From: Calditrichota bacterium
Lineage (GTDB): Bacteria > Zhuqueibacterota > Zhuqueibacteria > Thermofontimicrobiales > Thermofontimicrobiaceae
DNA length: 34,270 nucleotides
Assembly: GCA_013152715.1 (NCBI GenBank)
Contig: JAADFU010000024.1
Location: 1-34,270 of the forward strand
Direction: 5' to 3'
The first letter of the stretch is position 1. Every line of letters begins with the position of its first letter. The notes beneath the pieces are model-generated. The model was given only the letters and a program-made list of their open reading frames with translations. It made no database searches and was not told the DNA's origin. The position numbers and the translations under genes were made by a program. This document shows positions 10,615 to 21,891 of the stretch, piece by piece.

Positions 10615-11808
10615 TTAATAGCCAAAAGTATATATTTGTCGGAATGTAGTTTCACCCAGCGTCCTGTCAATTGCGCCGAAATCATCCCAGCGGCGAATAC
10701 GGCTGAGCACACATCGTTCCACGCGTTCATTGTTTAACGTCGAAGAAATCAATTCTACCTGAGTGACGTTTCCATTCACAGAAATTGTGAAACGCACAAC
10801 GATTTTCCCTTTCAAATCAGGATTTCGCCGCAACTCGCGCTGATAACAAGCTTGAATTGCCGCATTATGTTTGCTGACAATCGCGGAAATATCGTCAGGA
10901 TTCCGTTGTCCCACCAATTGCGGCTCTTTTTGTCTGACTGCCGTCTGACGCCGCTTCTCCAAATTTTGCTGTCTGCTTACATTGGCGGACGCGACTCGCT
11001 CCCGGCGGGCAATTAAATTTCCGAGATCCGCCTCCTCGTCCGCACGATTCTTGCGGCGAACGCGTTGGTCGCGCTGCGCCAACTCTTCCGAAGCGCTTTG
11101 CCCGCGATGAATGGCATCCACATCGTCAAGGGTCTGCTTGAATTTTCCCTGCGCCAAGTCAGCCTCGCTCAAAATGTCCTTGACTGCTTTCCCTGTGGAT
11201 TTTTCAGACGCGCTCCCCAAAAGTCCCAAGATGCCTTTGTCTGCGACATTTTGGGAAATAATCTTAAATGACTCGCGGTTGGGCAAGCGACGTCCTCGAG
11301 CGACAGGCACATGGTATGGATTATCGCCGCGAACCGCTTCGCCGGATACATTTTGTTGGTCAGAGGCGCTTGCGCGCTGAGTATTTTTTTCCACTGAAGA
11401 CGCCGTCTGCTCGGAAGCCAATCCGCCTTGTTTGTCTCCGCGCTGCGCCTTAGTTTCGCCGTTCGCCTGCTCTGGCGAGATCGGCGTGGCCCGACTCTTT
11501 TTCTTCGGCTCGACCTTAATTTCTTTTTTTAATACCAGACGCGCAAATTGCTGTTGTATTTTTTGAATCTCTTCAGGTTTCACCGGATTGGAAATTAGAT
11601 GCGTGGAAAAATAGTACGTGAGCGACACTTGTACAATGAACGTGATCGCCCAGATAACAACGAACCGCGCGTCAAATGAATCCGTAAATCTCCTTTTGTA
11701 TTTCTTGGGAAAATCTATATAAATGATGTGATCGTACCTGTCCGCGCCGGTTTCCGTCAAAGAACCACTTTGTTCAGGTTTACTATCAAAATGTCCTTCC
11801 ACTTTCAC
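10615..11808 (-). CDS. TonB/AgmX-like trans-envelope protein (AgmX/PglI C-terminal domain)
   Basis: A 397-residue protein with TonB topology: a cytoplasmic N-terminus of about 48 residues, one membrane segment (about 49-68), a long charged periplasmic linker (about 75-300, Gln/Arg/Lys/Glu-rich) and a C-terminal domain at about 310-397. That domain has the AgmX/PglI pattern, with two conserved cysteines (Cys321 in AIQACYQREL and Cys366 in VERCVLSRI), an F-x-I-x-x-x-G core and a closing IRRWDD. A linker segment KGILGLLGS also occurs in such proteins. The family transmits energy from ExbB/ExbD-type stators. It is the last gene of the operon, 48 bases after an exbD. The GTG at 11808 is the likely start, though a second GTG two codons on fits about equally. 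Confidence 0.82.
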   Translation of the reverse strand: MKVEGHFDSKPEQSGSLTETGADRYDHIIYIDFPKKYKRRFTDSFDARFVVIWAITFIVQVSLTYYFSTHLISNPVKPEEIQKIQQQFARLVLKKEIKVEPKKKSRATPISPEQANGETKAQRGDKQGGLASEQTASSVEKNTQRASASDQQNVSGEAVRGDNPYHVPVARGRRLPNRESFKIISQNVADKGILGLLGSASEKSTGKAVKDILSEADLAQGKFKQTLDDVDAIHRGQSASEELAQRDQRVRRKNRADEEADLGNLIARRERVASANVSRQQNLEKRRQTAVRQKEPQLVGQRNPDDISAIVSKHNAAIQACYQRELRRNPDLKGKIVVRFTISVNGNVTQVELISSTLNNERVERCVLSRIRRWDDFGAIDRTLGETTFRQIYTFGY

Positions 11809-11856: not shown

Positions 11857-12351
11857 TCATCCCTCTTTCTTGTACACAACAAGCCGCATATTGGGATAGT
11901 CCGCTCGTCCGCATGTCGCCATTATTTTAACTAATACTTTATAGGGTATCTCTTTGTCCGCCTGAATAGTCACTTTGCCAGAAAATTTAGTACCGTACAT
12001 CTCTTCCATGTGCTTTGCTTCTCTGGCGTAAACTTGCAACGTTTTCAGTAAATTCGGAACAATTAATCCTTCCTGATTAATGACATTTTTGACTTTTGCC
12101 ACTTCCTCATGGTTTACCACAACCGATTGCTTGGAAACAATCAAATCCAACGCGACTTCTGCCGGTCTTTCGATGGTCGAAGTGGGGAGAGTGAGCAAAT
12201 CAGAAGGATGGATTAACATCCCTTCCGTGGAATACGTCTTGAGCAAAAAGACCAGAATAATGGTAAACATATCCATCATCGAGGTCAAATTCAGGCGTAC
12301 TTTACCGGGATCGGTATCGTGTTTTTTTCTTCGCGATGGTATAAACGCCAT
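11857..12351 (-). CDS. ExbD/TolR-family stator subunit (Asp-bearing copy)
   Basis: A 164-residue protein with the ExbD/TolR layout: a basic cytoplasmic N-terminus (MAFIPSRRKK), one membrane helix (about 22-40) and a periplasmic domain (about 60-164). The helix contains LTSMMDMFTIILVFLL. Asp27 aligns with the proton-carrying Asp of E. coli ExbD (Asp25) and TolR (Asp23), so this copy should be able to take part in proton conduction. The periplasmic domain has the usual VTIQADKEIPYKVLVKIM segment. GGAG lies eight bases before the ATG. It follows the other exbD by 23 bases and precedes the TonB/AgmX-like gene. Confidence 0.9.
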   Translation of the reverse strand: MAFIPSRRKKHDTDPGKVRLNLTSMMDMFTIILVFLLKTYSTEGMLIHPSDLLTLPTSTIERPAEVALDLIVSKQSVVVNHEEVAKVKNVINQEGLIVPNLLKTLQVYAREAKHMEEMYGTKFSGKVTIQADKEIPYKVLVKIMATCGRADYPNMRLVVYKKEG

Positions 12352-12374: not shown

Positions 12375-12911
12375 TCAGATGATTCCGGCCGCCAGTGAAA
12401 CATCGGGAAATAATGTGAAGATTCTATGCTTAATTGAAATTTCCCGGCTGGCGTCCATCGTGTTTACCAGCAATTGATAGGGAATATCCGGATTCGCCTG
12501 GATAACTATGTTATTCGTATCCGAAAATTGGCCTTCCGCTTGCTTCTTTATTTCATATAATTTTTCGGACAGTTTTTTAAAATTGTAGTTGCCGTTTTCT
12601 TCCAAAGGAATGGTCGGTGCGCCTTTTTTGTTCCCTTTTACAACTTCAATGGAACTGGAAACATAAAATCCTTCCTCGGTAATCGTCACTGCCAAATCGA
12701 GATTCTTTTCCGACTCCTTTGGCGCCTGTAGTTGCGAGACGTTTGCTCCGACCGTCGGAGGCAAATTCAAATCGATCACGCCAATTTTGACAAACGTCGC
12801 CGACGAAAGAAGCAGCGGGATGAGAACCACCATCAGGTTCATCACCGGAGTCATATCGAGCTGCACCGGCTCAAAGGTGCGGCTGCTGCGTTTTGACGGT
12901 TTAAATGCCAT
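12375..12911 (-). CDS. ExbD/TolR-family stator subunit with Asn in place of the catalytic Asp
   Basis: A 178-residue ExbD/TolR homologue with a basic N-terminus (MAFKPSKRSSR), one membrane helix (about 20-42) and a periplasmic domain with IVIQANPDIPYQLLVNTM. In the helix the family motif reads MTPVMNLMVV. Asn25 (codon AAC at 12837-12839) occupies the exact place of the proton-carrying Asp, as shown by alignment with the neighbouring copy (TPVMN against TSMMD). The rest of the protein is well preserved, so it is not a decaying gene. It probably forms a heterodimer with the Asp-bearing copy inside an ExbB-type ring. The ATG is two bases after the stop of the ExbB gene, so the two are translationally coupled. 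Confidence 0.9.
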   Translation of the reverse strand: MAFKPSKRSSRTFEPVQLDMTPVMNLMVVLIPLLLSSATFVKIGVIDLNLPPTVGANVSQLQAPKESEKNLDLAVTITEEGFYVSSSIEVVKGNKKGAPTIPLEENGNYNFKKLSEKLYEIKKQAEGQFSDTNNIVIQANPDIPYQLLVNTMDASREISIKHRIFTLFPDVSLAAGII

Positions 12912-12913
12912 TT

Positions 12914-13564
12914 TTATTGATTCCCTGTAATTAAGTTAATCAATTTTACGGTGTGTTCGTCGATTTCATCAATAATCTGGTCGGTTTTGTTGTGAATGAA
13001 AGTGTACAATAAAATAGCAGGTACGGCAATCATTAATCCGGTCAGAGTCGTATTCATGGCAACCGAAATGCCCGCCGCTAACATGCGCGACTTTTCCGCC
13101 GCGTCGATTCCCGGCGATGAGACTGATTTGAAAGCGGCAATCAGGCCATAAATTGTTCCCATCAGACCAAGTAGCGTCGAGACATTAGCGATCATCGACA
13201 GATAACTGGTTCGTTCCCGCAATTTGGGAATCACCTCCAGCGTGCCTTCGTCGACAGAATTCTGAATGGCGCGAAACTCAATTTTTTCCGCGGAACCCAC
13301 TTTTTTCAATCCTGCCAAAACGACCTGAGGCAACGCCCTTTTCTTCGCCGATTGGCAAAGAGCAATCGCTTTTTTGTAATCCCCGGCGCGAACCTGTTTT
13401 CTTATTTCATCCATAAATTTTTGGGCATTGATATTCGAACGTACCATGATGTAATAAATTCGCTCGATTGCGACAGCAACCATGAAAACAGCCGCTACCA
13501 ACAATGCCCACATGAAAAACCACCCCGTTGAGTTTGTGCTGAAATTTTTTAAAATGTCAGCCAT
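12914..13564 (-). CDS. MotA/TolQ/ExbB-family proton channel protein
   Basis: A 216-residue inner-membrane protein. It has membrane helix 1 (about 14-36), a cytoplasmic loop, helix 2 (about 121-148, LGLMGTIYGLIAAF) and helix 3 (about 165-190, NTTLTGLMIAVPAI). The TxxG and NTTLTGL segments are family hallmarks around the proton path. Members form a pentameric ring around ExbD/TolR dimers and use the proton-motive force to do work on the envelope. The start at 13564 (MADIL) has GAGGAGGT five bases upstream and is preferred over an ATG-like extension five codons further up. It directly precedes two exbD genes. Confidence 0.93.
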   Translation of the reverse strand: MADILKNFSTNSTGWFFMWALLVAAVFMVAVAIERIYYIMVRSNINAQKFMDEIRKQVRAGDYKKAIALCQSAKKRALPQVVLAGLKKVGSAEKIEFRAIQNSVDEGTLEVIPKLRERTSYLSMIANVSTLLGLMGTIYGLIAAFKSVSSPGIDAAEKSRMLAAGISVAMNTTLTGLMIAVPAILLYTFIHNKTDQIIDEIDEHTVKLINLITGNQ

Positions 13565-13598
13565 CAGAGACCTCCTCAAGTTTTGGCCACTAAAGCGA

Positions 13599-14015
13599 TT
13601 AATTATTTTTATTGTTTGTTAATTTCTTCGCTGCTTTTTTCTTTGCCACAATTCTCTTGGCAATATTATTGATCTTTTGCGGCTTAAATAAACGGTCGTC
13701 GTTGACCAACGGCTTTTGGGGGAAACTTTTCAGCTCGTGATCAAAAGAACGATCCACAAATTCCAATTCTCCAAACTCCGGATTCATGCGCTTCGGCACA
13801 ATGGAAACGCGGGGCTTTTCAATGACCGCCTCGATGCTGATATCTTCCAGCACAATATCTCCTTCCAGTTGTACATCAGCCGCCGCCTTACCAGTGTCCG
13901 CTGCAATCGTTTTTTCGTGGCTGGAACCGTTCGTTTGCGCAAAGACTGATTGGCTGAAACAGAGCGACAAGCCAACTAATAAAAAAGCTGCCGCAAAAGC
14001 GCGATAAATTTTCAT
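13599..14015 (-). CDS. Small exported protein with basic C-terminus, unknown function
   Basis: A 138-residue protein with a clear Sec signal peptide (residues 1-26, ending SVFAQ). The mature part is acidic and extended at first (about 30-70) and ends in a lysine-rich tail (AKKKAAKKLTNNKNN). No family recognised. GAGG lies about eight bases before the ATG. The gene lies between the 1553-residue TPR gene (39-base gap) and the exbB gene (34-base gap), so it is probably a periplasmic accessory of the same machine. The basic tail might bind peptidoglycan or acidic polymers, but that is only a guess. Confidence 0.78.
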   Translation of the reverse strand: MKIYRAFAAAFLLVGLSLCFSQSVFAQTNGSSHEKTIAADTGKAAADVQLEGDIVLEDISIEAVIEKPRVSIVPKRMNPEFGELEFVDRSFDHELKSFPQKPLVNDDRLFKPQKINNIAKRIVAKKKAAKKLTNNKNN

Positions 14016-14054: not shown

Positions 14055-17000
14055 TTAATACAGAATAATATATTTATCCATGCTCAAATTTTCTTTGATT
14101 TTTTTATTGCTCGTTTCAAATAAAATCCGCTGCCTTTTTTTATCCCAATCAGGCAAAGATTTGATCGCCATGGTCGCAGTCATTCCCTGAGCGGTGCGAT
14201 CCGAATCGATGCCTTCCACCGCCAGCACGTTGTCTCCAGATTTCAAGCCGTCGCTCAAAATATAATGTCCCTGGCTAAAAGCGGAGCTATCCTGACGAAT
14301 GACGCCGGCAATATATTCGCCGTTGACAAAGAGATTGAATGAATCGTCCACTTTCATCTCAATTTCCACCGCGACAGGCAGGCCGACAATGGAAAAATGT
14401 TTCCGAAAATAGACGCGCTCGCAACTGACTCGTTTCAGCTTCGGCGTTTTCTTGACATCGATCTTTATTTTATTTTGATAAAAAGTCGAATCTGAAAACA
14501 GCGAATCAGGAAACGATAAATTCAAAACGCTGGAGTCGCCAGCCAGCGCAAACGTCAGCGAATCGCCGTAAGGCGCTTCAGTCGTGTCAAAAGAAAATCC
14601 GACCGTGTCCAATTTGGTCAACCAAATGTTGTGAGCCTTGTTTTCTTCGCCAGAAACAATTTCTGACGCCTGCCATTCTTGTTCGCTAAAATCAGGGTCA
14701 AGCCAATCGTCGACATAACTCGGAAATGCCAGCCAGCTTGAATCTGAATATTCAACGCGGCTATCCACGGCAAGCCCTAATAAATCTTTGAATTCATCAG
14801 GCCTCAAGCTTACCAATGCCAATTCTACCCGGGGCAGCCAGCGATTTTTGATTCCTAATTTTACCGCTAATTTGCGCGTCGTTTTCAACACGTTGACTGC
14901 ATTTTCCTTCAGTGAAAAATAATTATCCTCAAATGTGAACAGCGCATCTTCAAATTTAGATTCTTTCTTTTCCCGTGATAATTTTTCGTAAAACTTTTTA
15001 TTTGAATAATCAATTTTCGCCAGCGAATCACTTCGCAAAGCAAACAAATAAACCTGCTTCAAAATATTTTCTTCGGTGAGCAGCGCCGACGGATCATGGA
15101 TCTTAATTTCGTTGACAATGTCTAATGTCTGACGATAATAATCCACGGCCCGCAACATGAACTCTTTGGAGAAATCCAGCAAACCTGCCTGTTGATCGGA
15201 CAGCCCGATCAAATCGAAACCATTCTGCGTGGTTCCGCCCTCTGACGCCAATTTTTTGACAACCGGAATATTCCTGCCATGCAGATCCAGCGCCATGAAT
15301 GCCAGTTTTCTGTATTCGTCCGCCATCAAATTGTTCGTCTGGATCGCCTTCAACCGTGACGATTTGACCCAACGATTCTCAATGCCCAAATCCCACGCTT
15401 CCTGAATATTTCGGATATGCTCTTCCACAGCGGCGCGCACTAATGGCTCAACAGCGCGCTCCAACACCTGTCGATTATATTCCATGCGCTCGACTTGACT
15501 CAGGCTCTGCGGAATGGGAGCGTGCAGCAAATCCTGAATTGTCGCCAGATGCAATTCCGCCATGTCGTAAACCACCTTGGAAAGCTGCTCTTCGCAACGA
15601 TCAATCCAGCGCCGCGCAATGTACAACGTGCTGTCGTTTTGCACATATTTTTTTGAAATATCAGATTTTACTTGCGACGTATCGCTCGTTAGCAGAGATT
15701 TTTCATATTTGTCCGCCAGACGCCGCAAGATTTTTATGGACTGCTTGTACGATTTTTCCGCGCGTTGATAAAGTTCGACCGCGGCTTCGTTAATTTGTTT
15801 TTTCGTCACCGCCAACTGCGTCACGCTCATAGGGGGAATTTCTTGCCGCACCCAGGTATCGGCAAATTCCTCATAAGCCTTCCCGATATCGTAAGTCGAT
15901 TCGTACAAATGAACCGTGCCGTACGACGCCGTCTTGGTAAATCCGTCAACAATCTCAATCAGCAAATCCCGCTTTTTCAAGCGGCTCTTTTCCATATTTG
16001 CCTGGGGCAGTTCAAATTCAATTTTGCGGAATTCGTTAAATTTGATTTTCGTAGCGCGAGACAACGCTTCCGCTGCAAAATAGTCGTTGGGCTCAAGCTT
16101 TGCTTTTTGAAATTCTGCGTTTTTGTCCACGGCTTTCCCATATTCCGCCAGTGCGTTGTCGATTTCCTTTTTATCCTCATAATAGCGACCACGACGATAA
16201 AAACTCTCCACCACGCGCGGCGACGTGGGAAATTTTTCCACGTATTCGCCGTAGATTTTATTTGCTTCTGCAAATTTGTCTAATTTCAAATAATAATTAG
16301 CAATGTCAAAAAACAGATCGTCGGCGTCTTCGGAATTCGGAAATTTATCAACAAACTCGCTATTGATGCGAATAGCATTTTCCCAATCCGTTGCTTTGAC
16401 AAAAAACAGACTGGAATTAAACAGCGCGTCGTGAATTTGCAAAGAATCTTTCGCGACGCGCGCCAGGCGTTCATAAGTCAGCGCCGCGTTTTTGAATTCG
16501 TGAATTTCGCCGTAATCAATGGCCAGATTGTTCATCGCATCCAGCAAATATTTAGAATCTTCTCGAGTTTCAACAAGAAAATTATACGTTTCCACAGCGC
16601 GGCCATATTCGCGAGCTTTGTCGTATTCCACAGCAGCGTTGAACAAACTCAAATCCACGAACGGCGCGTCCGGGACTTCCTGCGCCATGCGCAAAAATTC
16701 ATTGCCCGCCTGCAAATGGTCGTCCGCCGCGGCGAAAACCTTTGCCGAAAGGAAAATCGACTCAGCTAATCTCCGCTTCGCCTTTTCCACCAACGCCGGC
16801 GGCGCCGAACCATCGTTTTTTATCTTGCGGGCGACTATTTCCGCACTGCGATAATCGCCCTTGCCAAAATAGCTTTCCAGAATTTGATATTTAATATCAT
16901 AAATTTTTTCGTTATTGGGAAAATGCTTCACAATGGTATTGAAATATTTGAGCGCTTCGGCGAACATATTATTATTGAAAAAAAGCGCCCCTGCGTTGTT

Positions 17001-18716
17001 CAATATTTTAACCGTTTCTTTCTCGTGGGGATAGAGTTTAATATAATTATTATAAGCGCGAATTAGCTTTTTCTCGCTGGGCGTCAATTGGATACGATTG
17101 TAATGAAACTCCGCGAGCACATTCCCCTTGATCTCTTTGACGTTGAGTTGATCGCGGCCATCAAACTGGATTTCTTTCCGCGTTGTGTCCAATTCCACGG
17201 CGTCTCTTCCCAGAGCGATTGCGTTTTCGGCGGCGTAACGCTGATAATTTGAATCCCAATACAAATCACAAATTTTCATGTATTCTTCAAATGCCTCATC
17301 ACTTTGCTTAAGTTTGGTGTCCAACGTCAGCGCCATGTTCCAATGAATGCGCGCCGAATTGCTATCAGTCGGGAAATTTTTTAAATACTTCCGACAATCA
17401 TTCACCGCCGCCAGATACAAACCCTCGTCGCCGGCTTCCTCCGCTTGCGTAAAGAGAAGACTGATGTTGTCTCGCAGCGCGCGTTCCGTTGCCTGGTAGG
17501 CGCGCTCTTTCGCCTTTTCATTTTTCTGTCGCGCCCACCAGGAGCTGCCCGGTTTATACAAATTGAATAGTTGATCGCGCGACAAGTAAGTCAGACGGTT
17601 GTCGCCGAGCAGACGATAACAATCAACAATATTTTCATGAATATGCGGCGCTATTTCCGCTTGCGGATAAAGCTTCAGCAATTTTGAATAAGCGGCAATG
17701 GCTTTTGGATACTCTTCTTTGTCATTCATGTAAACGTCGCCCATTTTCTGCAAAATTCCGATCCCGAAAGCGGGTTTGCCCATGCTGTCAATGTAAGCGA
17801 CAGCGCCCGATAGGCCGTTTTCACCGGAATCGAGAAAACTGAGCCCAATGTACTCAACGGCTTCATCGCGCAGATCTGGATTGGAAATTTGGCTATTCAC
17901 GCCGAGCTTTTTGGTGCGCTCCACGTCTTCAATGAGCAACGTGAAATATGATACGGACTGCGGAAAGTCACTTAAGCGATAATAACACCAACCGAGCCGA
18001 TAGAGCGCCTGATTGTATTTGGGACTGTCTTCATACGTAAGAATTTTCTTGTAATAAACAATCGCCGTGTCAATTTCGTTGCGCGGAGGATTGAAATGAT
18101 ACTCGGCGATCCGCATCAACGATTCCGGCGCGTAACGGCTATCCGGAAATTTTTCTACGATTGTATGATAAACCTGAAGCGCCGAATCCAATTCGCCGAC
18201 TTCTTCCAAAATATAGCCTTTATTGTAATAGGCATCATCCACCAAATTGCTAAACGGAAAATCGCGAATGATTCGCTCGTAAATCGACAATGAGCCAGAA
18301 TAATCGAGCTTTGGCTCCTCAATTTTTTTATCAATTCCGAGACTGTCGTAAACGCTAACCTGATCGTCGTACTCCTGAAGTTGTTTCACGTACAGGTCAT
18401 TGGCTTTTTCGTAGTAAAGTTCAGCCAGACGCATGAGTACTTTGTCCAGAATTTTGCTCTTAGGATTGTCGGCGATAAACTTTTTCGCATCTTCGATGCC
18501 TTTTTCCCGAATAGTGTTCTTCTCTTTCTCGGCGTCAGCAATCTTTCTCTGGTAAAAAGCGCGAAATTGAAGAATCTCTTCAATGGAATAAGTATCAAGA
18601 AGGGAATCGATTTTCACTTTCTGGCGAATATTAATCGGATTTTGCTGCTGCCCAAAACAGACATGAGATAATAATAATACTGCCGCTAAGGCCAACAAAT
18701 TAATATAATTTTTCAT
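14055..18716 (-). CDS. Giant periplasmic TPR protein with C-terminal sugar-binding-like domain
   Basis: A 1553-residue exported protein. Signal peptide at about residues 1-22 (MKNYINLLALAAVLLLSHVCFG). From about 60 to 900 there are many TPR units, recognisable by repeated YxKA/FPxS spacing and segments such as YYNKGYILEEVGELDSAL and FFDIANYYLKLDKFAEA. A helical, partly coiled region follows to about 1330. The last 150 residues form a beta-rich domain with VYFRKHF, DDSFNLFVNGEYIAG and GDNVLAVEGID, a pattern seen in galactose-binding-like jelly-roll domains of glycoside hydrolases and carbohydrate-binding modules. No catalytic residues are apparent. AGGA lies seven bases before the ATG. It is co-transcribed with the other TPR protein upstream and the ExbB/ExbD/TonB genes downstream, so it is probably the periplasmic scaffold or effector of that motor. 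Confidence 0.88.
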   Translation of the reverse strand: MKNYINLLALAAVLLLSHVCFGQQQNPINIRQKVKIDSLLDTYSIEEILQFRAFYQRKIADAEKEKNTIREKGIEDAKKFIADNPKSKILDKVLMRLAELYYEKANDLYVKQLQEYDDQVSVYDSLGIDKKIEEPKLDYSGSLSIYERIIRDFPFSNLVDDAYYNKGYILEEVGELDSALQVYHTIVEKFPDSRYAPESLMRIAEYHFNPPRNEIDTAIVYYKKILTYEDSPKYNQALYRLGWCYYRLSDFPQSVSYFTLLIEDVERTKKLGVNSQISNPDLRDEAVEYIGLSFLDSGENGLSGAVAYIDSMGKPAFGIGILQKMGDVYMNDKEEYPKAIAAYSKLLKLYPQAEIAPHIHENIVDCYRLLGDNRLTYLSRDQLFNLYKPGSSWWARQKNEKAKERAYQATERALRDNISLLFTQAEEAGDEGLYLAAVNDCRKYLKNFPTDSNSARIHWNMALTLDTKLKQSDEAFEEYMKICDLYWDSNYQRYAAENAIALGRDAVELDTTRKEIQFDGRDQLNVKEIKGNVLAEFHYNRIQLTPSEKKLIRAYNNYIKLYPHEKETVKILNNAGALFFNNNMFAEALKYFNTIVKHFPNNEKIYDIKYQILESYFGKGDYRSAEIVARKIKNDGSAPPALVEKAKRRLAESIFLSAKVFAAADDHLQAGNEFLRMAQEVPDAPFVDLSLFNAAVEYDKAREYGRAVETYNFLVETREDSKYLLDAMNNLAIDYGEIHEFKNAALTYERLARVAKDSLQIHDALFNSSLFFVKATDWENAIRINSEFVDKFPNSEDADDLFFDIANYYLKLDKFAEANKIYGEYVEKFPTSPRVVESFYRRGRYYEDKKEIDNALAEYGKAVDKNAEFQKAKLEPNDYFAAEALSRATKIKFNEFRKIEFELPQANMEKSRLKKRDLLIEIVDGFTKTASYGTVHLYESTYDIGKAYEEFADTWVRQEIPPMSVTQLAVTKKQINEAAVELYQRAEKSYKQSIKILRRLADKYEKSLLTSDTSQVKSDISKKYVQNDSTLYIARRWIDRCEEQLSKVVYDMAELHLATIQDLLHAPIPQSLSQVERMEYNRQVLERAVEPLVRAAVEEHIRNIQEAWDLGIENRWVKSSRLKAIQTNNLMADEYRKLAFMALDLHGRNIPVVKKLASEGGTTQNGFDLIGLSDQQAGLLDFSKEFMLRAVDYYRQTLDIVNEIKIHDPSALLTEENILKQVYLFALRSDSLAKIDYSNKKFYEKLSREKKESKFEDALFTFEDNYFSLKENAVNVLKTTRKLAVKLGIKNRWLPRVELALVSLRPDEFKDLLGLAVDSRVEYSDSSWLAFPSYVDDWLDPDFSEQEWQASEIVSGEENKAHNIWLTKLDTVGFSFDTTEAPYGDSLTFALAGDSSVLNLSFPDSLFSDSTFYQNKIKIDVKKTPKLKRVSCERVYFRKHFSIVGLPVAVEIEMKVDDSFNLFVNGEYIAGVIRQDSSAFSQGHYILSDGLKSGDNVLAVEGIDSDRTAQGMTATMAIKSLPDWDKKRQRILFETSNKKIKENLSMDKYIILY

Positions 18717-18752: not shown

Positions 18753-21662
18753 CTATTTGTTCCCCCCTCCTTGCTTCAATTGTCGCTGCAAACTCTCCAG
18801 GTTTTCGCTCCCTTCCTCAACCTCCCGAGTTTTGGTGTCAAAATAGAGTTCCTGAAAATACTTCTCTTTCTCCAACTTTTCCAGCCGAATCTTTTCGGCC
18901 TCCATCTCTTTTTGAATTTTGCGCATCTCCGTGTCAAATCTGGTAATCCGTTGTTCAAGCTTATCTTTCTTTTCCTGCAAGATAGTCTCTATTTTAGTCA
19001 AGTTGCGCGACAAGGCCATAATTTGCTGATTTTTTTCCCGAAAAAGACTAAAATTAATATCGCTGATGCCAAAGCCAGAAAAATTTGCCCATTGAATCGT
19101 CTGCGTCTCTACCTCTTCCACGCGGTGGTTGCGCAGCCAAATCTCAAATCGATTGAGTTGTTTGTTTAAATCGACCAGGTCATCTTGCAACACTTCCAGA
19201 TCCACCGCCACGTCGATATCTTCGCCCGACATTCTGAGACTTAACTCAGAGATCGCTTGCAGATCTTTCCCGAGTTGTTGTTTTTCTTCCGCCATATTTC
19301 CGACGAGTTTGTTAAAAATGCCGCGGCGATAGACTACACCAGCCTCTTTCGTTGCCATGGGGTAATCCAAAAAATAGCTCACGGGCGTTGTCGGTCTGGA
19401 GAATTGATACCGTTGAAGCACCGAAACCAGTCGATTTCTTTGCTTCACTGCATTAGCAAGCATTTTTTTATTTTGCTCCTGGCGGGCATAGTCAATAATG
19501 CGATCAAATTCAGCAATTTGCTTAACTAAAATTTTTCGTTCATTGGAGTATTCTTCCACCGCCAGACTACTCGTCGCAGTCCGATAACGAAAAGATGATA
19601 ACGCTTCGTTTATTAAATTTCTGGCGCGCACCAATTTAGGGTAGAGCGTCCGATTTTGGTGGTCTAAAATTTTTTCTTCCAGCGCATCCACCTGATCCAA
19701 CTGCTTGAGCAATTTGCTGCGCTCTTTGTTGTATTCCTCGACTCTGTTGAGCACCCGACGCGCGTTCGCGACATACCGTAAATCAGACAGCGCTTCCTGG
19801 GTTTTGTTTTGCGCGCGCTTGCAGTGCGCCGCCAGCACTTTGGCTTCATAAATATAATTGGTCATCAAATAATTAGAAAAAATCGCGTCCACCTTATTGA
19901 TGACCGTGTTGTATTTACCTTTCTTCAAATTTGCCCAAGCCTGGCCGATCAAACTTTTGTCATATTCATCATATCCGGCAGAAATTTGTGAAAAATTAGC
20001 CAGCGCAGCGTCATATTCGCCCAATTGAAAATGCAAATACCCTAATTTTAGCAGCGCCTCGTTGCGAATAATGGCGTTATTCAAGTCTGTCCAGGGAAAA
20101 ATTTTCTGGTGCACAACATTTTCAAACGTTTTTTTGGCTTGTTTATACTCATTAAGATTAGCAAACACAGTCCCTTGCAAATATTGCGCCACAAGATAAT
20201 ATCTTGAGCCCTTGCTGATTTTTGCCAGAGCTATGCGAGCTTTATCATATTGTTGACGACGAATGTAAATATCAGCCGCCAAATAATGCGCCTTATTCAC
20301 ATCTTCCGGATCGAGATTGTTAAAATTTTCAAGTTTAGCATAATATTTGAAAAATTCATCATCCAACTGATAAGTATAATTTATCGCCAACAGACGCAGA
20401 TAACATTGCCCCAAAAATTTTGAGTGGGGATAATTTTTCACGATGTCGAGATAACCCTTTTGCGCTTCATCGTAATAATTATTGGCAAAATTGGCTTCGC
20501 TTCGATAAAAAATTACTCCGTCCAGATTAGGATAGTATTCCTGGTAATCAGTCAGGATGCGGTCAAATATCATCGCGGCGAGCTCGTACTTCCCGTCCGC
20601 ATAAGTCAAGAGCGCATCGCTGATTTCGCTTTCCAACATCCGATCCCGCTGCTGAGGCGTGGCTAATCGAATGAGTTTCGTATGTAATATTTTGTAACGT
20701 GTGAAATTCACCTGAAACTGCGCCACACGCGCTGCCTTCCACTGCATGAAACGCTCAGAAACAGTGAGTTTTTTGGAGGGCATCGCTTGAGCATAGTCAA
20801 ACAGCGCCAGAATTCGACCATCGATCGAACTCATGATTCTGCCACGCGTCTGGTCAATGGTAGACTCCGCCGCGCTGTCCGGAGCCGCACCCGCCTGAAG
20901 TTGATCGAGTTCCCTCAAAATCCCCACGATATCGGTGCTTTCTTTGATATACTCTTCTACAATTTGGTCCGGTTCGGTGTTGGCAATACGGCTTTTTTCC
21001 ACGATCTGTAAAATTCTCGCTTTTTGACGATCCAATTCCTGAACCAGATTTTCATCCCCGCGCGCCGCAGCTCTCTTTTGAAAAGCTTCGATTTGTTCAA
21101 ACAACCGAAGCAAGCGATTTATCTCTCCGGAATACTCATGAATCATCAGCGACATGTCAGCGCCGGAAACAACCCCTGACTGCAATTTACTTTTGTCCAG
21201 CGCATCTGACAATTGATCCTTAATTTGCTCCACCTCGCGCAGCAGCTTCCAATCATCCTTTCGCTGAACAACCTGGCTCAGACTGTCCACCTGAATTATT
21301 ATTTTCTCCATGAGCGAAATCTCGTTGCGGTATGCGGCAACTAACTTATCTTCTTTTTCATGAATCTTGTCCATCCCTAAAAGCTGTTCCGTCAACTGGC
21401 CGGAACCGCGCGATTGAATTTCATGAGCGACACTTCTGATCATCTGAGTGAGCATCTGCTCTTTCAGAGACATCCGCTCCAGAAAACGCCTCGTTTTCAG
21501 ATCGAGATAAAATCTTAATCGAGTTTCAAAATCAACGCTCAGTTGATCTTCGTTATTTTTTGTTTCAGATTTGGCACCCAGGCTGATAGGGTCAAAGGCA
21601 AGCAAAAGAGAGAAAAGAAAAAAGATGAAAAAAGCCTTCCTCGCTGCCGATCTTTTTGCCAT
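18753..21662 (-). CDS. Large exported coiled-coil/TPR protein
   Basis: A 969-residue protein and the first gene of the operon. Signal peptide at about residues 1-30 (MAKRSAARKAFFIFFLFSLL). An N-terminal helical region (about 40-300) is rich in Glu, Gln, Leu and Arg, and is coiled-coil-like. A TPR block follows (about 350-640; for example YDEAQKGYLDIVKNYPHS and LGYLHFQLGEYDAALANF), then a C-terminal coiled coil (about 650-960) rich in Lys, Glu and Gln. The start at 21662 is set by GAGGT eight bases upstream and by the signal peptide; the frame is open 24 codons further up. It resembles TPR scaffold proteins of gliding, Tol or secretion systems but no specific homologue is recognised. Confidence 0.87.
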   Translation of the reverse strand: MAKRSAARKAFFIFFLFSLLLAFDPISLGAKSETKNNEDQLSVDFETRLRFYLDLKTRRFLERMSLKEQMLTQMIRSVAHEIQSRGSGQLTEQLLGMDKIHEKEDKLVAAYRNEISLMEKIIIQVDSLSQVVQRKDDWKLLREVEQIKDQLSDALDKSKLQSGVVSGADMSLMIHEYSGEINRLLRLFEQIEAFQKRAAARGDENLVQELDRQKARILQIVEKSRIANTEPDQIVEEYIKESTDIVGILRELDQLQAGAAPDSAAESTIDQTRGRIMSSIDGRILALFDYAQAMPSKKLTVSERFMQWKAARVAQFQVNFTRYKILHTKLIRLATPQQRDRMLESEISDALLTYADGKYELAAMIFDRILTDYQEYYPNLDGVIFYRSEANFANNYYDEAQKGYLDIVKNYPHSKFLGQCYLRLLAINYTYQLDDEFFKYYAKLENFNNLDPEDVNKAHYLAADIYIRRQQYDKARIALAKISKGSRYYLVAQYLQGTVFANLNEYKQAKKTFENVVHQKIFPWTDLNNAIIRNEALLKLGYLHFQLGEYDAALANFSQISAGYDEYDKSLIGQAWANLKKGKYNTVINKVDAIFSNYLMTNYIYEAKVLAAHCKRAQNKTQEALSDLRYVANARRVLNRVEEYNKERSKLLKQLDQVDALEEKILDHQNRTLYPKLVRARNLINEALSSFRYRTATSSLAVEEYSNERKILVKQIAEFDRIIDYARQEQNKKMLANAVKQRNRLVSVLQRYQFSRPTTPVSYFLDYPMATKEAGVVYRRGIFNKLVGNMAEEKQQLGKDLQAISELSLRMSGEDIDVAVDLEVLQDDLVDLNKQLNRFEIWLRNHRVEEVETQTIQWANFSGFGISDINFSLFREKNQQIMALSRNLTKIETILQEKKDKLEQRITRFDTEMRKIQKEMEAEKIRLEKLEKEKYFQELYFDTKTREVEEGSENLESLQRQLKQGGGNK

Positions 21663-21891
21663 GATGGAATACCTCAGATGATTTATCTTGATGATTGTCT
21701 GTGTTGATAAATTTACGTGTTCGGCTGGTATCACTGTCGGTCATCGCGCCCCCGAATGGAAACCGACGTCAAACATGCAGATCAATCGCAAGCGCTCTTG
21801 CTGTCTCAGCAAAGTTGAAAAATCATATCGATGCCATGGGATTGATCAATTCCCCCACAACAGTTTCAGTTTATTCCAACAACTCCTTGCA

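Follow-up and report, generated by a model that had tools for sequence, protein, structure and literature searches.

The locus described here raises the question of how an envelope motor of the ExbB-ExbD type is built when one of its two ExbD subunits lacks the proton-carrying aspartate. The window, which is the whole stretch of 34,270 nucleotides of Calditrichota DNA that was analysed, contains two adjacent ExbD-family genes, exbD1 and exbD2 (Table 1). The membrane helix of ExbD1 reads LDMTPVMNLMVVLIPLLL with asparagine as residue 25, and that of ExbD2 reads NLTSMMDMFTIILVFLL with aspartate as residue 27. This difference between the upstream copy and its partner had been pointed out in a preliminary description of the locus, and the open reading frames, their translations and the intergenic gap of 23 bases bear it out. 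Both proteins score above the cut-off of 25.4 bits for the Pfam ExbD family (PF02472), with 54.5 bits for ExbD1 and 51.8 bits for ExbD2. The aspartate in the membrane helix, which is expected of the family, was found in ExbD2 and is missing from ExbD1, and the pair therefore carries it once. AlphaFold2 models of both proteins were of moderate confidence and show a single membrane helix at the N-terminus, after which comes a periplasmic domain with the ExbD fold. In the single-chain model of ExbD1 (mean pLDDT 72) the helix comprises residues 21-47 and is followed by a periplasmic alpha/beta domain, where the best fold match in the PDB is the ExbD periplasmic domain 8pek, a weak match (E 4.7e-3, probability 0.98). 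The Foldseek matches that follow this first ExbD match were rejected as noise.

The two genes belong to a row in which two TPR proteins, a small exported protein, ExbB, ExbD1, ExbD2 and an AgmX/PglI-type transducer are encoded in this order. A residue table against E. coli ExbB places both ring threonines in the ExbB of the window and a valine at the position of Glu176 (AAGISVAMNTTLTG). Glu176 is essential in E. coli ExbB. The start of exbB may be an internal ATG at 13561. The transducer scores 88.6 bits with the NCBIfam model NF033768, which is above the cut-off of 40, and its match to the GltG model is below that model's own cut-off. Its membrane helix (FVVIWAITFIVQVSLTYYF) lacks the central histidine that TonB and TolA have in their SHLS motif, and some relatives do have a histidine there. 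No family match in Pfam or NCBIfam was found for the small protein directly upstream of exbB.

Table 1. Features of the motor gene row and the codons discussed in the text, in window coordinates
Feature	Position	Strand	Length or basis
Transducer, TonB-like force transducer, one membrane helix, AgmX/PglI C-terminal domain	10615..11808	-	397 aa
exbD2, ExbD-family partner with Asp27	11857..12351	-	164 aa; ORF, Pfam
Asp27 codon GAT of exbD2	12271..12273	-	sequence reading
exbD1, ExbD-family, Asn25 replaces the proton-carrying Asp	12375..12911	-	178 aa; ORF and translation
Pro32 codon CCG of exbD1, the +7 Pro coupled to the neutral residue	12816..12818	-	
Asn25 codon AAC of exbD1 (complement of gtt)	12837..12839	-	sequence reading
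exbB, MotA/TolQ/ExbB family pore subunit	12914..13579	-	Pfam PF01618, 84 bits
Small protein, signal-like N-terminus, directly upstream of exbB	13599..14015	-	138 aa; ORF
TPR protein, YbgF/BamD-like repeats	14055..18716	-	1553 aa
TPR protein, weak YbgF and GltC matches	18753..21734	-	993 aa

Ten ExbD genes were found in the genome of the window. A second exbB-exbD-exbD cluster is located on contig C180 (loci L004/L006), where a copy with asparagine (VNIIPVMNIFLLLIPFLLL) is followed by a copy with aspartate (LKLTSMIDMFTILLVFLL) and then by a larger transducer-like protein. The same asparagine/aspartate pattern is thus present at 37% and 41% protein identity to the pair of the window. The remaining six ExbD proteins, which include two tandem pairs, have aspartate at the site, so that Asn/Asp and Asp/Asp pairs coexist in this genome. 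We also noticed that an open reading frame similar in size to the small protein of the window precedes exbB in the C180 cluster. Furthermore, about 3 kb from the C180 cluster (G000:C180:15913-20682; L002, L004-L006) the opposite strand encodes an Asp/Asp tandem pair, and the ExbB of this neighbouring pair also lacks Glu176 and has a valine in its place.

As the AAC codon is separated from GAC by one transition, the asparagine could in principle be a sequencing or assembly error, and the preliminary description had named such an error as a finding that would overturn its claim. The objection fails, as the paralogue in the same genome and all orthologous pairs share the residue and both asparagine codons are in use, and we give this explanation a negligible probability. 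Among the distinct tandem pairs the site is encoded by AAC in 104 and by AAT in 81, and since the two codons are mixed, the amino acid has been kept through synonymous change. The idea that the asparagine is unique to the window genome was likewise discarded, as it is shared by the paralogue and by the relatives.

The conservation of the site was assessed with the aspartate partner alone as query against 84,980 named species genomes, which leaves the asparagine column untouched. The best 80 of 357 relatives have record titles from KSB1, Calditrichota, Fibrobacterota, Deltaproteobacteria, Oligoflexia, Nitrospinota and others, and in these 80 the upstream copy has asparagine in nearly all cases, glycine in three, serine in two and an acidic residue in none. 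A profile of the two asparagine copies gave matches in 40 of 40 relatives, a few of them weak, and wherever a relative had an asparagine copy with a readable partner the order was asparagine and then aspartate (72/72 loci). In the phylum of the window the profile matched 80 of 82 genomes at E<=1e-3, four of them weakly, with the same pattern in its other classes. The tandem ExbD pairs collected across several phyla number 241 when counted as distinct, a sample that is non-random because it was drawn by similarity to the partner gene of the window. They comprise 185 N/D, 35 D/D, 10 G/D, 5 D/N, 4 S/D and 2 C/D pairs (first/second copy). A neutral first copy beside an aspartate partner is therefore present in 201 of the 241 (185 Asn, 10 Gly, 4 Ser and 2 Cys). 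The second copy has its aspartate in 236 pairs, the exceptions being the five D/N pairs, which are of the Nitrospinota type.

The preliminary description had left it to such a column to decide if the copy after exbB always has asparagine, and we did observe asparagine or another neutral residue to be fixed there in the phylum of the window and in several others. It had also held that relatives with aspartate in both copies would speak against it. Such pairs exist among more distant tandem relatives, and so asparagine is not a property of all tandem ExbD pairs, but the orthologous clusters do not contain them. The Asp/Asp tandem relatives are mostly from a Myxococcota-like phylum (that of genome G091, with several records titled Deltaproteobacteria and related records ranked as Myxococcota), and they occur in the first-copy clade as well as in canonical ExbD clades. 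Glycine forms the first-copy residue in seven loci (L300-L306) from compact genomes that presumably belong to the genus Fibrobacter, and cysteine (VDLTPIMCLFIILVPLLL) was observed in two loci, L354 and L355. In Fibrobacterota and some others (L124-L136, L145, L150) the first copy is 430-450 residues long and has a second ExbD-like periplasmic domain.

The neutral residue was found together with changes elsewhere in the motor. Seven positions further along the ExbD1 helix a proline is present in 199 of 201 neutral first copies and in none of the 40 first copies with aspartate. Where E. coli ExbB has Glu176, the residue is acidic in 0 of 191 neutral/Asp loci and in 28 of 31 Asp/Asp loci (Fisher p 2e-32, a value inflated by shared descent). 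ExbB position 180 is threonine in 186 of the 191 neutral loci and asparagine or cysteine in 25 of the 31 Asp/Asp loci. The proline is missing from just two neutral loci, L298 and L349 (serine in both), which come from different phyla and are also the sole two with ExbB Ala180. The whole set of four positions is switched between the sister loci L268 and L357, with Asn, Pro, Val176 and Thr180 in the former and Asp, Val, Glu176 and Cys180 in the latter. In addition, the third residue before the site in ExbD2 is serine in 195 of 201 neutral pairs, and proline or alanine in most pairs with aspartate in the first copy. The chemistry of the proton site, in contrast, is conserved, with ExbB Thr148 and Thr181 both present in 187 of 187 neutral loci and the aspartate of ExbD2 retained. 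Downstream of neutral/Asp pairs, an AgmX-type domain was found in 93 of the 102 loci with enough sequence, while none of the 9 same-clade Asp/Asp pairs has an AgmX-type transducer within 2.8 kb downstream.

In a mean-field DCA, whose statistics are weak (Meff about 163 for 331 columns), the top-ranking ExbB-ExbD1 pair is ExbB180 with ExbD1 +7, and among the ExbD1-ExbD2 pairs the second rank goes to the ExbD1 site with ExbD2 -3. Since the enrichment of membrane-membrane pairs in the top ten is modest (p 0.01 to 0.37), this coupling is suggestive at most. A test of asparagine and proline on independent pairs did not reach significance because there were too few such pairs. Few independent switches exist, and the coupling is for the most part due to common descent. 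A substitute for the missing acid was also considered and rejected. No charged residue was found from -3 to +13 of ExbD1, with the exception of one histidine in one locus, and no conserved acid was found in the ExbB pore helices, so that a substitute carboxylate is absent from view. The covariation of the neutral copy with ExbB pore positions supports the view that it evolves as a component of the pore.

As the neutral residue is fixed and covaries with the pore positions of ExbB, a heterodimer with a single protonatable site, as suggested in the preliminary description, stands as the best reading, where the formation of the heterodimer is itself presumed. The locus is likely to encode a motor of composition ExbB5-ExbD1-ExbD2 that uses one proton-carrying carboxylate to drive an AgmX/PglI-type TonB-like transducer. 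We infer the 5:1:1 ratio from the pairing of the genes and from 5:2 homologues. The central axle would be a heterodimer of paralogous ExbD subunits, one of each inside an ExbB pentamer, with the only proton-binding aspartate in ExbD2. ExbD1 would contribute a permanently neutral residue (Asn, or Gly, Ser or Cys in some lineages), which would resemble an aspartate that is always protonated, and a proline two helix turns further on. The ExbB ring would have adapted by keeping its two threonine rings and losing the Glu176 acids, and in such a build one carboxylate would be left of the canonical seven (two Asp and five Glu176). With one loadable position of two, every second step would be passive, the power stroke would come from ExbD2 only, and the motor might turn in effective steps of 72 degrees at a cost of about 5 protons per revolution or might perform a rocking stroke instead of rotation. 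Force would pass to the transducer and to the TPR proteins of the cluster. The inactivity of the D25N mutant of E. coli ExbD counts against this reading (PMC11658791), although the mutation changes both copies there. The asparagine copy may also be merely structural, which was the alternative given in the preliminary description.

The covariation also bears on a motor with an ordinary ExbD2 homodimer in the ExbB pentamer, where ExbD1 would be an accessory or regulatory subunit outside the pore, such as an assembly factor, a plug or a peptidoglycan clamp. ExbBD, TolQR and MotAB are known to contain Asp/Asp homodimers, and an accessory role would agree with the greater length of ExbD1 in many lineages and with its second ExbD-like domain in Fibrobacterota. 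However, ExbD1 keeps an ExbD-type transmembrane helix, and its fixed Asn25 and Pro32 covary with ExbB 176 and 180, which would not be expected of a subunit outside the pore; we regard this arrangement as unlikely. The loss of six of the seven canonical carboxylates of a 5:2 complex (one ExbD Asp and five ExbB Glu176) might instead mean that the site is no proton relay in this subfamily and that the complex is a passive channel or a mechanosensor in which the remaining aspartate is structural. Against this, the ExbD2 aspartate and both ExbB threonines are invariant in the neutral loci and a TonB-like transducer follows, and such a function seems to us very improbable.

The single-site heterodimer was further considered with an ExbD tree, which was built with the site and the +7 column masked. 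The tandem first copies (83 rows) form one clade with an SH-aLRT support of 95 and the second copies (67 rows) form another with 98, and the two clades are joined with 97. Both subunits therefore go back to a single duplication and have been kept together since then. A single clade of the neutral first copies gave p 0.55 in the AU test, and the neutral residue in the first-copy clade may have a single origin. The two genes lie in an operon-like row with a median frame-to-frame distance of about 4 nucleotides in the tandem-pair loci, and their synthesis is thus probably coupled. This row, together with the lack of any sequence feature that forbids ExbD2 homodimers, would also suit a mixed population of ExbD2 homodimers and ExbD1-ExbD2 heterodimers, where the dose of ExbD1 tunes speed, load or idling. 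Nevertheless, two old clades that are found together fit an obligate pair better, and the changes in the ExbB pore are fixed in the loci that have a neutral copy of this clade, which makes a mixed population decidedly unlikely.

A reversed pair was observed in the Nitrospinota-titled phylum (that of genome G090), where aspartate is in the first copy and asparagine in the second in 27 fetched loci (L370-L396, e.g. L333:994-1800). These are canonical-type tandems from a different ExbD clade without proline at +7, and of the 26 ExbB motifs that were read for them, 25 have Glu176. Because this reverse pair is of a separate clade, asymmetric pairs arose at least twice, and because it keeps ExbB Glu176, the loss of this acid is not an obligatory partner of the asparagine. 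The Nitrospinota case goes beyond the preliminary description, as do the proline at +7, the loss of ExbB Glu176 and the threonine at ExbB 180. On balance we lean towards a widespread and old class of envelope motors that runs on one proton-carrying carboxylate per complex, with an obligate ExbD heterodimer and a half-acid design that arose at least twice. If this is correct, the symmetric dimer with two aspartates would be an option and not a requirement for motors of the 5:2 type.

In comparison with E. coli ExbB-ExbD and TolQ-TolR, the motor of the window shares the family membership of all three subunits (PF01618 and PF02472) and the ExbB residues Thr148 and Thr181. It also resembles the Ton and Tol systems in the single aspartate in the helix of ExbD2, in the TonB-like transducer and, as in Tol-Pal, in the nearby TPR/YbgF-like proteins. 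It differs from them in having two different ExbD proteins, of which one is without the aspartate and has a proline at +7, and in its ExbB Glu176 is missing and residues 138, 141 and 180 are Asn, Thr and Thr, where E. coli has Ala, Pro and Ala. The ExbB pentamer of E. coli holds two ExbD helices with Asp25 close to the rings of Thr148 and Thr181 (PMC6778125), and in rotary models of ExbBD, TolQR and MotAB two identical aspartates alternate with a step of 36 degrees per proton (PMC9022066, PMC12215075). The need for both aspartates is hard to probe in homodimers because a mutation hits both. Our search of the open-access literature found no report of an ExbD paralogue with asparagine, of ExbD heterodimers of two paralogues or of MotB D32N heterodimers. 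The neutral/Asp motors could serve as an experiment of nature on a single site, in which the compensating changes have already been made, and as one axle protein keeps its acid, the rule that both must alternate becomes testable in nature. They offer the ExbD site and its +7 position and ExbB 176 and 180 as positions for testing, in a motor that could be broken subunit by subunit.

The tandem Asp/Asp pairs of the Myxococcota-like phylum belong to the same first-copy and second-copy clades, but they have both aspartates, no proline at +7 and an ExbB with Glu176. The closest described system is Glt/AglRQS of Myxococcus xanthus, where two ExbD-like genes come after one ExbB-like gene (Luciano et al. 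2011, PMC3169522) and the partners include TPR proteins and C-terminal domains of the AgmX/PglI type (GltG, GltJ). The motor of the window is not filed as AglRQS. AglQ and AglS are both described as having the conserved aspartate (PMC9389320), whereas ExbD1 of the window has Asn25, and aglRQS is located apart from its Glt partner genes. Clusters related to AglRQS/Glt have been reported in Fibrobacteres (PMC3169522). By gene order and protein size, FSU_2397-2403 of Fibrobacter succinogenes (TPR, TPR, one gene, ExbB, ExbD, ExbD and a TonB-family protein) resembles the row of the window. There, cellulose was the only substrate on which the ExbD FSU_2401 and the TonB protein could be detected (PMC4619616), and FSU_2400-2403 were up-regulated on it (PMC6851124). 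The presumed Fibrobacter loci described above differ from the window in having glycine and not asparagine in the first copy. Judged from their sequences, the bacterium of the window seems to share with many relatives, which belong to several phyla, a motor made from two different axle proteins.
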